20,989 bases of DNA from a virus. This document shows positions 2,743 through 18,099 of the stretch, in pieces. A program made the position numbers and the translations under genes. Each line of letters starts with the position of its first letter. The stretch's first letter is position 1. Below the pieces are notes generated by a model, which worked only from the letters and a program-made list of their open reading frames with translations, searched no databases and was not told the DNA's origin. The stretch covers positions 1 to 20,989 of IMG/VR virus record IMGVR_UViG_3300042922_000196; one strand, written 5' to 3'.

Positions 2743-3573
2743 CTATGATGCTGTTACAGTAACTACACAAGTTGCTGTTTTGTTTCCATCAACTGTAGTA
2801 GCTGTAATAGTTGCTGTTCCTGCTGCTACTGCTGTAACTTTACCACTGCCATTAACTGTTGCAATTAATGGATTTGAAGTAGTCCAGTTTATTAATTTAT
2901 TTGTAGCGCCAGTAGGTGCATAAGTTACTATAAGAGTGTCATTTGCTCCTACTACAATAGAATCAGTGGTTTTATTTAATGTAATACTAGTAATAGCTAT
3001 ACTTGGTGGAATTGTAGGAACTGCTGTAAGCCATCCTGCCAAAGCATTAATATCTACACCCGGTTCATCATCATCTGCTATAAGTCTCCAATTGCCATCA
3101 GATTCTCTAGGAATAAATGTAGCTTTTAATGTAGCTGTTTGTGTTTTTAACTTATCTGCATCTGTGTCATAATTATCCGCTGTTAGTTCAAATTGTCCTT
3201 TAAATAAACATACATATCTATAATGTACTTTATCAGACTTTAAAGATCTAAAACTCATGGCTACCCACGGTGGCACATCATTTTTATTCTCAACTAGCAC
3301 GCCGTTAATTAATTGAGAACCCTGTAAAAATGCTCTTGTAGCTGGGCCTAATTGATTTAATTCTATTTCTACATCTATGGAATCGAATTTCTGTATAATT
3401 TCTTCTATATTATCGTCAGAGTATTGCATCTCGCTTGTTGATTTAGGTGTTATTTTTGCACTTACCGACCTTTCATATTTGGTCATATTTCCGTATTGAG
3501 CTGTTCCACCTATAATATCTGTGTTATCTGTTAAAGGTGCAAAACTTACATCTCTTAAACCTATTTGTCTCAT
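2743..3573 (-). CDS. Major tail tube protein (phi13-type) with C-terminal Ig-like (Big_2) domain
   Basis: A 276-residue protein. Residues 1-185 look like a phi13/TP901-type major tail protein, with an opening MRQIGLRDVSFAPLTDN, a QLGPATRAFLQG segment and a KTQTATLKATFIPRESDG strand region. It would polymerise into the tail tube. After a proline-containing linker (TAVPTIPPS), residues 194-274 form a bacterial Ig-like domain: SITLNKTTDSIVVG, INWTTSNPLIATVNGSGKVT, AAGTATITATT and CVVTVTAS are signature pieces. Such domains decorate the tail surface and are thought to bind weakly to carbohydrates. Here the domain is encoded in frame, not reached by frameshift. The gene starts within a 23-bp segment also found at the capsid gene start. 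Confidence 0.92.
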   Translation of the reverse strand: MRQIGLRDVSFAPLTDNTDIIGGTAQYGNMTKYERSVSAKITPKSTSEMQYSDDNIEEIIQKFDSIDVEIELNQLGPATRAFLQGSQLINGVLVENKNDVPPWVAMSFRSLKSDKVHYRYVCLFKGQFELTADNYDTDADKLKTQTATLKATFIPRESDGNWRLIADDDEPGVDINALAGWLTAVPTIPPSIAITSITLNKTTDSIVVGANDTLIVTYAPTGATNKLINWTTSNPLIATVNGSGKVTAVAAGTATITATTVDGNKTATCVVTVTAS

Positions 3574-3592
3574 TTAGCATCTTTCCTTTCAA
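3570..3592 (-). promoter_or_regulatory. Translation initiation region shared with the capsid gene (copy at major tail gene)
   Basis: These 23 bases span the ribosome binding site (GAAAGGAAAG on the minus strand) and the ATG of the major tail gene. They are identical base for base to 6199-6221 at the major capsid gene. Flanking sequence differs, so the identity is limited to the initiation region. Both genes encode the most abundant virion proteins. Confidence 0.85.
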
Positions 3593-3593
3593 C

Positions 3594-3923
3594 TTAAATA
3601 TTTTCTTCTAAATAAAATATTGTAATAGCTGTATGATATTTCTTGGCTACATCATCATAATTTAAATCTCTTATTTCTGATATTCTAAAATCTTTTGTTT
3701 CTAATATATTGCCTATTTGTTCTGCTAAATCTCCTATATCACCGTTATAATAAAGATCAATTTGTATATAATAGCCTGTACTTTCTCTTTCATCATCAGA
3801 AGAATCTTCTGGTTGTATTAAATAATAAAAAAAAGTAGCATAAGTTGAAGCGGTACCAAGATATTTCTGATAATATATTGGTACCAAGGGCTTTACAGTA
3901 TTAATTATTAACTCATTAATCAC
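3594..3923 (-). CDS. Putative tail completion/terminator protein
   Basis: A 109-residue protein with a probable GTG start at 3923. AAGGGG lies about 10 bases upstream inside the preceding gene, and the stop of that gene overlaps this start. It lies between the HK97 gp10-like gene and the major tail protein, where siphophages encode the tail terminator or completion protein (SPP1 gp17-like) that caps the tail tube and joins it to the head. The N-terminus (INTVKPLVPIYYQKYLG) and the later strand-rich region (GYYIQIDLYYNGD, HTAITIFYLEE) suit this small alpha/beta fold. I infer the role from position; the sequence alone would not name it. Confidence 0.6.
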   Translation of the reverse strand: MINELIINTVKPLVPIYYQKYLGTASTYATFFYYLIQPEDSSDDERESTGYYIQIDLYYNGDIGDLAEQIGNILETKDFRISEIRDLNYDDVAKKYHTAITIFYLEENI

Positions 3924-10034: not shown

Positions 10035-10520
10035 TTAATCCTCACCACGCAAAGCTTTTAACAAAGGGTCTTTCTTATCTTCTTTTGTCTTTACATTAAT
10101 TACAGATAATTTTGCTCTTGCAGAAGGACTTAAACCTAATTGTAAACAACATTGATAAAATATTGCACTATAATCTTTATAGATTGTTATAGCTGGATTC
10201 TTTTGCAATCCTCCATCATCTTTTTCTATAACCATACCATATTTTTTAATAGCTTTCTTTGCGGCTCTCATGTTCATAATACTGTCTACAGTTTGAACTA
10301 ATATTTGTATATCTAGGTTATTTAAAATAGCAGAAGCTTTCAATTGCTCTACGAGATAAACATATAGTTCTTTTTCGGTTTTAGTTCTTAAATCTCTAGG
10401 AGGTGTATAAACTAAATCGTCATTACCTTGCAACTTTTCCTCCTGCTCTTTTCTATCTTCAATCTCTTCTTTGGTTAAATGACTAGAATTTATAGCAATT
10501 GGTTTGGCACTTTTTGACAT
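10035..10520 (-). CDS. Terminase small subunit, P27 family
   Basis: A 161-residue protein with TAGGAGGTGATAA before its ATG. P27-family features are present: a basic opening ending in a TPPRDL segment, helical YVYLVEQLKASAILNN and LDIQILVQTVDSIMN, and the C-terminal QCCLQLGLSPSARAKL, a hallmark of this family. It recognises the packaging site and recruits TerL. The strongest GC-rich island in the neighbourhood lies just upstream, in the gap toward the HNH gene. Confidence 0.94.
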   Translation of the reverse strand: MSKSAKPIAINSSHLTKEEIEDRKEQEEKLQGNDDLVYTPPRDLRTKTEKELYVYLVEQLKASAILNNLDIQILVQTVDSIMNMRAAKKAIKKYGMVIEKDDGGLQKNPAITIYKDYSAIFYQCCLQLGLSPSARAKLSVINVKTKEDKKDPLLKALRGED

Positions 10521-16296: not shown

Positions 16297-16920
16297 TTAT
16301 TTGTTAGCTTCAAAGAAGGCTTTTGAAAAACCCGGTGGAGTTATACTTCTTCTAACTTGTCTTTTATCTAAACCACAACCTTTGTTATATATAAATCCTT
16401 CTGGTAGTGGTGGCAAATCTTCCAGTAACCTTGCGTCAAATTTTGTTTGGTCGTATTCAACTATATTTTTCTCCGGTAGATTAAAATTTCCCCAGATATG
16501 AGTTACTTTTTTATAAGAATTACCATATTCATATGGATTCATTTCCAAAGGTGGATTACCTAAAAAGTATCTTAAAAACCCTCTTGGATTTTCTAATGCC
16601 CAAAACTTTAAAGTTGTTACTTTTGAATTTTTACTAGGTAATTCATATTGTTGTTGCCATATTATTTCTAAGCATCTTTTAACTAACTGCATTGCCCCCC
16701 CTAAATCTCTAGGCGTTTTTGCATTTGTTCTTGCTAAGCTAAAATGCGTACATGTAGGTGCTGCCAATATTCCATATACATTCTTTGGTGGCTCATAGGT
16801 AAATACGTCATACTGTGGAAGAGTTATAAGCCTTACATCATATCCAGCATCTTTATAAGGTTTTGACCAACTTCCAGTACCACCGCACAAATCAAGTATT
16901 ATCTTTTTACTATTTTCCAT
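16297..16920 (-). CDS. Cytosine-methyltransferase-like protein (C5 MTase family, short)
   Basis: A 207-residue protein with AAGAAGGTGATAAA upstream. C5-cytosine methyltransferase motifs are in order: SAM-binding LDLCGGTGSWSKPYKDAGYD (residues 9-28), the Cys motif LAAPTCTHFSLAR (Cys57), ALENPRGFL (Glu110), and the C-terminal RRSITPPGFSKAFFEANK. The usual Pro-Cys pair is Thr-Cys (PTC), unusual for the catalytic loop. At 207 residues it is short for a full enzyme, which leaves little room for a target recognition domain. It may methylate phage DNA for restriction protection or use another target. It follows the PP-loop gene by 98 bases. Confidence 0.82.
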   Translation of the reverse strand: MENSKKIILDLCGGTGSWSKPYKDAGYDVRLITLPQYDVFTYEPPKNVYGILAAPTCTHFSLARTNAKTPRDLGGAMQLVKRCLEIIWQQQYELPSKNSKVTTLKFWALENPRGFLRYFLGNPPLEMNPYEYGNSYKKVTHIWGNFNLPEKNIVEYDQTKFDARLLEDLPPLPEGFIYNKGCGLDKRQVRRSITPPGFSKAFFEANK

Positions 16921-17018: not shown

Positions 17019-17837
17019 CTATAATGCACATTCACATGGTAAAAATGATAACTGACCATTCATGGGTAAAGCTTTTTCAACTGCTGCCCAAAATGTTTGT
17101 GGCTGCATCTTTTCTCCTGGAACTATGCCCCTACATTTCATTTGCTTAAATTTTGGTTCAAGATCTTCTAAAAAAGTATCTTTTAATATGCTATAGCCTA
17201 TCGCATTTTCTGTTTCTATAGCTTCTTTCCATATCTCAGGGTATAAACAATAAACTAAATACCATTGCTGTTTACCAGCTTTTAAACATCCTATACAATT
17301 GGCATGCCTAAATAATTCATATGTCTTAGGTCTTTTAATTCCTATATCTTCAGTATTTTGTATTGTTCTATTCCAGTAAGCCAAAGGGAAGTCGGTATAG
17401 TATCCTTTTGTTTGCATTACACCTATTCTTCTTTGTATTCTACTAGGTTCGCTTTTATCGAAACCATACAGAATTTTAACATCTTCTCTCATATCATCTT
17501 TTTTAACTGGATAATGCTTATTTAGCCATTTATAAAAAGGTTTTGTTTTAAGATTATAAGTACATAATGCAGTACCAGTTCCTACTTTAAAGGCTCCTAT
17601 ATCTTTGCAAATTTTTAATGGTGTTTTTGTTTCCCAGCCTTCCATATTTGCATAAGTTATAGGTACTTCTAGGTACTTTGATATTTCCTTTTTAAATCTT
17701 TTTATATCTAAATCCTCAACTAAGGGACTTATATCATGATTCAATAAAATTACATTTTCTTTACCTACTTTTCTAACAGCTTCTATAGCTACTAATGCTG
17801 AGCTATGTCCACCGCTTAAGCAAACTACATACTCCAC
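17019..17837 (-). CDS. PP-loop/PAPS-reductase-like (DndC-like) protein
   Basis: A 272-residue protein with a GTG start at 17837; AAGGT lies 7 bases upstream. The N-terminus holds a PP-loop SGGHSSA (residues 8-14), the phage variant of SGGxDS that binds ATP. A conserved TALCTYNLKTKPFYKWL follows with Cys92, then FRHANCIGCLKAGKQQWY with Cys181 and Cys184, and a C-terminal CEC (Cys268, Cys270). This is the phosphoadenosine-phosphosulfate reductase fold; several Cys may hold an Fe-S cluster. In phages such proteins are rarely tied to sulfate assimilation, and DndC-like nucleic acid modification is an alternative. No dnd partners are visible here. A long structured leader precedes it. Confidence 0.85.
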   Translation of the reverse strand: MEYVVCLSGGHSSALVAIEAVRKVGKENVILLNHDISPLVEDLDIKRFKKEISKYLEVPITYANMEGWETKTPLKICKDIGAFKVGTGTALCTYNLKTKPFYKWLNKHYPVKKDDMREDVKILYGFDKSEPSRIQRRIGVMQTKGYYTDFPLAYWNRTIQNTEDIGIKRPKTYELFRHANCIGCLKAGKQQWYLVYCLYPEIWKEAIETENAIGYSILKDTFLEDLEPKFKQMKCRGIVPGEKMQPQTFWAAVEKALPMNGQLSFLPCECAL

Positions 17838-18060
17838 ATATTCGACCTTCTAAATGTTTTTACACATCTAGTAAGGTCAGTCTTTAGAGCTTCCCACGCT
17901 TTTACCCTAGCATCTATGTTTAAGATAGTAGTAATCACACAATTATTAAAGACTTTATACTCTAATTATCACTCTTACGGTTCATTCTTCATGGTTTGCT
18001 AAACTATTGGGCTGTGTACCCTCAAACCTCGTAACCTGGTCTACCAGGATTGATTATGTG
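17838..18060 (-). ncRNA. Long structured leader RNA of unknown class
   Basis: This gene-free stretch folds into several stems on the minus strand: CCUGG-UAGA-CCAGG at 18048-18035; a 6-bp GGUUUG/CAAACC pair (18028-18023 with 17998-17993) holding a GGG/CCC stem inside; an enclosing UUACG/CGUAA pair (18034-18030 with 17979-17975); a long-range 8-bp AGUCUUUA/UAAAGACU pair (17954-17947 with 17886-17879); and last the 14-pair stem over the ribosome binding site. I do not match it to a riboswitch or intron class by eye. A cis-regulatory role for the next gene is inferred from the final stem. Confidence 0.6.
17844..17878 (-). promoter_or_regulatory. Hairpin covering the ribosome binding site of the PAPS-reductase-like gene
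   Basis: On the minus strand GACCUU-A-CUAGAUGU pairs with ACAUUUAG-AAGGUC (14 pairs, one G-U, one bulged A) around a 6-base loop. The right arm contains the AAGGU that is the only ribosome binding site for the GTG at 17837. The stem has no U-run after it, so it should act on translation, not termination. Confidence 0.72.
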
Positions 18061-18082
18061 GATTTTTATTTCTATATCTCAT
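18041..18082 (-). CDS. Possible 13-residue leader peptide
   Basis: An ATG at 18082 has an excellent ribosome binding site, GGAGGT, 6 bases upstream and codes for MRYRNKNPHNQSW before a TAG. The ribosome binding site lies in the loop of a 6-bp stem (GTAACT at 18100-18095, AGTTAC at 18088-18083, minus strand). Stop and last codons fall in the first hairpin of the leader. It may be a leader peptide or the remnant start of a broken gene. Confidence 0.4.
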   Translation of the reverse strand: MRYRNKNPHNQSW

Positions 18083-18099
18083 GTAACTACCTCCAGTTA

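Follow-up and report, generated by a model that had tools for sequence, protein, structure and literature searches.

Phage T4 genes 38 and 25 are described examples of split translation initiation regions, in which RNA structure shortens the spacing between the Shine-Dalgarno (SD) sequence and the start codon from 22 and 27 nt to 5 and 11 nt, respectively (PMC3014915). Here we describe a structured leader that precedes a PAPS-reductase-like PP-loop gene in the window, i.e., the whole stretch of DNA analysed, a virus record of 20,989 bases with minus-strand phage genes that include TerL, an Erf/Rad52-like gene, a DnaD-like loader and YopX. An earlier note on this DNA had proposed a structured, cis-acting leader in front of the gene. 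Our analysis supported this proposal, and confirmed that the observation is real and larger than first described. From comparison of sequences, the leader probably belongs to an undescribed family of cis-acting phage RNAs that controls the translation of PP-loop genes.

Results

Architecture of the leader in the window

The stems that the earlier note had placed by coordinates were all found at those positions. They include the long-range pair of 8 bp, which is perfect as claimed (17954-17947/17886-17879), and the terminal stem of 14 pairs (17878-17873/17849-17844 plus 17871-17864/17857-17850), whose right arm contains the ribosome binding site, AGAAGG at 17851-17846 being the likely SD of the GTG at 17837. 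Two parts had been missed. The closing helix P1, which joins both ends of the element, had been overlooked, and the spacer reported as gene-free is present but holds a 13-codon ORF with a good SD, which runs from 18082 to a stop codon in the first hairpin loop. Because of these two omissions, we widened the coordinates of the element to approximately 17833-18062, with the leader ORF extending to 18082 (Table 1). Counterparts of this ORF are MNIKLKIPHYQSW in L003 and MRYRYRIPLTQSL in L007, each followed by a stop codon. In the window the structure has an SD at either side: GGAGG belongs to the leader ORF, and AGAAGG is local.

Table 1. Features of the leader and the gene behind it (positions in the window).
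Feature	Position	Strand	Basis or remark
PP-loop, PAPS-reductase-like gene, GTG start	17019-17837	minus	phrog_424, E 2.8e-26
Whole RNA element, P1 to P1'	17833-18062	minus	P1 boundaries; match to covariance model R1 at 17835-18062; folding z -3.78
P1 3' strand, GAAUAUGUGGA	17833-17843	minus	GUG start codon inside
P6 terminal hairpin, 14 pairs	17844-17878	minus	contains local SD AGAAGG (17851-17846)
P4 long-range helix, AGUCUUUA/UAAAGACU, and enclosed internal loop	17879-17954	minus	GGGAAGC at 3' end of loop
P3 (GGUUU/AAACC) around P3a hairpin (GGG/CCC)	17993-18028	minus	GA...CCAAUAG internal loop
P2 hairpin, CCUGG-UAGA-CCAGG	18035-18048	minus	most conserved hairpin of the family
P1 5' strand, UCCACAUAAUC	18052-18062	minus	10 of 11 pairs with 17833-17843; own-partner permutation 0/20000 (34 elements)
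Leader ORF, 13 codons, MRYRNKNPHNQSW followed by stop	18041-18082	minus	stop UAG in P2 loop
SD of leader ORF, GGAGG	18090-18094	minus	sequence and anti-SD strength

Folding of 17838-18060 gave -53.3 kcal/mol (z -2.57), and 1 of 200 shuffled sequences was equally stable. When the ends of the element were included (17830-18066), the energy was -63.6 kcal/mol (z -3.78), and none of 200 shuffles reached it. The unconstrained fold of the window favours an alternative pairing near P2 and in part of P3/P4, and the structure of the long-type leaders was picked by hand.

Search of the window against Rfam 15 at the gathering thresholds, including the riboswitches, group I and group II introns and HEARO, yielded no match, and relaxed thresholds gave a single chance-level match (E 0.75), located in coding sequence next to the element. 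Rfam searches of 11 related loci returned nothing at E<=1, those with L144 and L221 returned chance-level matches only, and a search for tRNA and tmRNA found none. The earlier note could not match the leader to a known riboswitch, ribozyme or intron class, which agrees with the lack of any match beyond chance in Rfam 15; the match to an unrelated element such as an intron remnant, which it had named as a refutation, did not appear among the group I and II introns of Rfam. Literature searches found no paper on a leader RNA or riboswitch in front of PAPS-reductase genes of phages. The family is new to the RNA libraries and the literature that we searched.

Relatives of the leader

The first relatives were obtained from homologs of the window enzyme in IMG/VR, and further ones by pattern scans for the P2 hairpin. 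Several of these homologs share a common first hairpin, AAUCC-UGG-UAGA-CCA-GGUUAC, a middle part that varies in size and a hairpin immediately before the start codon. We distinguished three types: S, the gut-phage leaders (L065, L144, L170, L198 and others); C, short leaders with a CCACUA terminal hairpin (L004, L006, L016, L142, L235, L284); and L, longer leaders with P3a and a local SD (the window, L003, L007, L048, L221, L341, L350). Full window-type copies precede PP-loop genes in L350 and L341. Comparison of these elements shows a common predicted architecture, in which P1 joins the ends of the element at the start codon and encloses P2, P3, P4 with a conserved internal loop, and P6.

The earlier note had expected the leader in homologous phages, and many do carry it; in some relatives of the enzyme, e.g. 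L008, the leader is absent, so these enzymes do not depend on it. The element is rare in samples of genomes, occurring in 1 of 391 from one class, 2 of 207 from one family and, as a true match, 1 of 398 from one phylum, these samples having one genome in common. A DNA-similarity search of phage and plasmid records for the element found none, and a tblastn match led to one member in MT835516.1 (L337).

Covariation and covariance model

We aligned 13 S-type leaders to a structure of 34 pairs (alignment A3), with the window and its close relatives excluded. In this alignment, 97.7% of cells are paired and 15 of the 34 pairs have changed on both sides. There are 43 cells with double-sided changes vs 10.5 in shuffled alignments (0/500), and sliding the partners abolishes the signal. 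The alignment also contains invariant unpaired columns. Compensatory changes, which the earlier note had named as the support to look for, are seen in the stems of relatives: the 8-bp P4 pair reads AUUCCUC/GAGGAAU in L007 and AACCUU/AAGGUU in L341, and GGG/CCC of P3a is swapped to GCC/GGC in L350.

A covariance model, R1, built from the 13 leaders of A3 recovers the window element (17835-18062) at 35.1 bits and an E-value, rough as are all those from this model, of 1.3e-7 (in 180 kb). Its matches to other leader types have E-values between 5e-11 and 3e-3. When a 501-base stretch of the window was searched without filters, the score was 27.7 bits and the 3' end was put within P6; therefore, R1 fixes the 3' end of the element poorly. 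Membership of the window element in a new family of leader RNAs is well supported by these comparisons. Confident R1 matches elsewhere precede PP-loop genes where the contig continues, and in the window and the complete confident matches the PP-loop gene lies directly downstream, with the exception of L020. There, the leader at 10353-10480 (minus strand) is an orphan with no PP-loop gene, and homology stops right at the position of the start codon.

Two matches, L139 (E 7e-4) and L351 (E 3e-4), were rejected as false matches in unrelated sequence, and only matches below approximately 1e-4 were therefore trusted. Two further leaders, L188 and L166, which precede SGGKDSL proteins, have low scores and are uncertain members.

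Pairing of the start codon in P1

The 5' flank of P2 pairs with the start region of its own element at -9.36 kcal/mol vs -6.79 kcal/mol with those of other elements (0 of 20000 permutations, 34 elements). This pairing is kept by more than 20 different P1 sequences, among them AUACC/GGUAU, ACACC/GGUGU, ACAUC/GAUGU, CAUAACU/AGUUAUG and ACGCUUA/UAAGCGU, and the longer UUCCAUUAA/UUAAUGGAA, ACCAUUCCA/UGGAAUGGU and GCCUUUCCA/UGGAAAGGU. The 3' strand of P1 covers part or the whole of the start codon in nearly all elements; in L256 it either ends right before the UUG or covers an AUG that lies in frame, two codons before it. A start codon in or directly beside P1 is thus a trait common to the members.

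Placement of SD sequences and upstream stop codons

On the 5' side of the element, the best anti-SD pairing has a median of -8.6 kcal/mol, compared with -4.6 kcal/mol directly before the start codon, and the 5' SD is the stronger in 31 of 34 elements (p 7e-6). Homologs without the element have an anti-SD pairing of -7.4 kcal/mol before their own ATG. Most S- and C-type relatives have their only good SD on the far side of the structure, and the 5' SD is not followed by a start codon in most members. A second SD-like sequence at the 3' base of the terminal hairpin occurs in the window-type members, L254, L256 and L279. Masking of the SD by the last hairpin, as had been suggested from the window, fits the window and the types closest to it; it does not extend to most members, whose P6 has no SD and whose SD lies 5' of the element.

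An upstream ORF stops between -18 and +6 of P2, i.e., at or inside P1/P2, in approximately 40 of 46 elements. These ORFs are of two kinds, leader ORFs of 7-16 codons and preceding genes, the latter encoding unrelated proteins. Part of this pattern may be ordinary, since packed phage genomes put stop codons near the next gene, but packing does not account for the clear dedicated leader ORFs, which are found in only about a dozen elements.

Downstream genes and genome context

The PP-loop protein of the window has 272 residues and a P-loop motif of SGGHSS. The family that it matches, phrog_424, is phosphoadenosine phosphosulfate reductase; no Pfam family matched it. Relatives of the enzyme are 50-83% identical, and the enzyme family matches a solved structure, PptA (PDB 21fy), at E 6.4e-17 with a profile and 1.4e-12 with the single sequence. 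A literature search found no paper on this structure.

The leader is present before at least 7 different PP-loop/PAPS-reductase-like protein groups (SGGHSS, SFGKDS, SAGVSS, SGGAASS, SGGKDST, SGGKDSHF and SGGIGS), in phages and prophages mainly of clostridial type. PF01507 matches the downstream proteins of L198, L142 and L221, and a protein search with the SFGKDS group yielded further leaders. L198 and L250 have a near-identical leader and the same kinds of upstream and downstream gene, with a different PP-loop group between them; the leader therefore stays while the enzyme gene is swapped. In L276, two tandem PP-loop genes each have their own element and their own P1 (ACACC/GGUGU and AUACC/GGUAU). 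This contig has three successive PP-loop genes at 1009-2726 and 2864-3889, two of them with their own leader element.

Several neighboring genes were observed alongside. In the window, the next gene downstream (16297-16920, minus strand) belongs to a phage DNA methyltransferase family, phrog_757 (E 9e-28), and in Pseudoalteromonas phage Y3 the PP-loop gene is likewise adjoined by a gene annotated MT-A70. Downstream of the gut-type PP-loop gene in L342 (3656-5271) are isochorismatase/nicotinamidase-like and PRPP-synthetase-like genes and the start of a NAMPT-like gene, and the first two kinds are likewise found downstream of the PP-loop gene in L345 and L346. This gene set looks like NAD salvage. 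The upstream gene in L144 resembles PRPP synthetase.

Discussion

The placement of start codons, SD sequences and upstream stop codons around a covarying fold makes control of translation likely for this leader family, and we infer that it takes the form of translational coupling gated by the fold. P1, together with P6, would hide the start codon and, in the window, the local SD as well. A ribosome on the upstream gene or leader ORF would terminate inside P1/P2, where it would cover the 5' strand of P1, open this helix and free the start codon. Because the only good SD lies 5' of P1 in most members, the fold would have to bring SD and start codon together there, the folded domain joining the two as in T4 genes 25 and 38. 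The geometry resembles that of the T4 genes on a far larger scale, with the start codon in a helix at the foot of a compact domain and the 5' SD only a few bases away from the opposite strand of this helix. Such bridged initiation would need at least the P1 end to be open, since P1 pairs the start codon itself. Window-type members would use the local SD beside P6. The conserved unpaired segments around P4/P5 suggest a putative binding site, and one may guess that the conserved internal loop binds a ligand or protein that sets the state. A bolder version, which we offer tentatively and regard as doubtful, is that of an RNA gate: a large ligand- or protein-sensing domain between the SD (with the upstream stop) and the start codon would pass a terminating or SD-bound ribosome across 100-280 nt of folded RNA to the start codon in the closing helix. 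That an intron of a new self-splicing class lies at this place is the less likely variant.

Among other explanations, a metabolite riboswitch is a real possibility, although we place it somewhat on the improbable side. The P3-P4-P5 core would be its aptamer, and a ligand would open or close P1/P6 and thereby expose or mask the SD and start codon; this is compatible with translational control and adds a ligand to it. The earlier note had suggested that the metabolite may be related to the enzyme; a single leader, though, goes with enzymes of several different families. Strong conservation of unpaired segments (the invariant columns of A3, and GGUAAA, AGCGUGAAA and GGGAGGAUU, which are kept in distant types) speaks for an aptamer, as does the occurrence of one leader with different enzyme groups downstream (L198, L250); no known aptamer matched in Rfam, however, and the core ranges from approximately 100 to 280 nt, which is wider than usual for an aptamer. 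Phage proteins often repress their own synthesis, and the leader adjoins PP-loop genes, so the PP-loop protein or another phage protein might bind its own leader and repress translation. We consider such autoregulation rather unlikely, because the downstream proteins are very unlike one another, yet the leaders can be near-identical. A small RNA in its own right, with a guide- or cofactor-like role, which works with the enzyme and ends by chance at its gene, would suit a complex conserved fold tied to one enzyme superfamily and the enzyme-less orphan copy in L020. This reading is decidedly unlikely, given that the closing helix contains or adjoins the start codon and that the placement of SD and stop codon follows the gene.

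Splicing and bypass were considered because the SD lies on the far side of the element, and are disfavoured because window-type members hold a plausible SD within the element, beside the start codon, and because the upstream ORF and the gene, as read by hand, do not stand in the same frame relation across P1 in all types, so that a constant fusion is not supported. If a small self-splicing intron of a novel kind separated the SD from the start codon, its removal would join the two; excision at P1 would leave ordinary spacing (e.g. AAGGAGUUAAU joined to AUG), in line with the SD directly before the start in homologs that lack the element. Rfam gives no group I or II match, and no empty site was found: relatives with the same upstream gene have the element or lack the enzyme too. 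In the search with the gut-type upstream gene, the relatives with the enzyme all carry the element, so the boundaries of the element could not be set that way. We therefore hold this intron to be very improbable. The short ORF that ends with a stop codon in or beside a hairpin also suggests a programmed bypass like that of T4 gene 60, in which ribosomes would take off at the stop codon of P2 and land at the enzyme gene. This reading is scarcely credible: the SD is not followed by a start codon in most S-type members, and matching take-off and landing codons were not seen.

The leaders add a strongly covarying RNA family to phage PAPS-reductase-like PP-loop genes, which are widespread and functionally unexplained, and give a handle on the control of these genes and perhaps on the metabolite or modification involved. 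If it is true that SD and start codon act across a fold of 100-280 nt, a curiosity of T4 becomes a widespread regulatory design.

The leader family resembles several known systems in part. As in the bypass of T4 gene 60, there is a short ORF with its stop codon in or near a hairpin; unlike gene 60, there is no fusion frame, and the downstream protein has its own start codon. As in leader-peptide and termination-reinitiation control, a single structure holds both an upstream stop codon and the next start codon, whereas the domain between stop and start is here large and conserved. With translational riboswitches the family shares a conserved, complex leader fold, an unpaired conserved core and an SD or start codon in a helix; it differs from them in having no Rfam match, in the SD often lying upstream of the domain and in the upstream ORF that stops inside it. 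Like the split initiation regions of T4 genes 25 and 38, the members are phage genes with structure between SD and start codon, but those of T4 have a spacing of 22-27 nt and one structure, compared with 100-280 nt and several conserved helices in the leader family (PMC3014915). A further difference from T4 is that the closing helix of the family contains or adjoins the start codon, and that the leader occurs with many genes of one superfamily.
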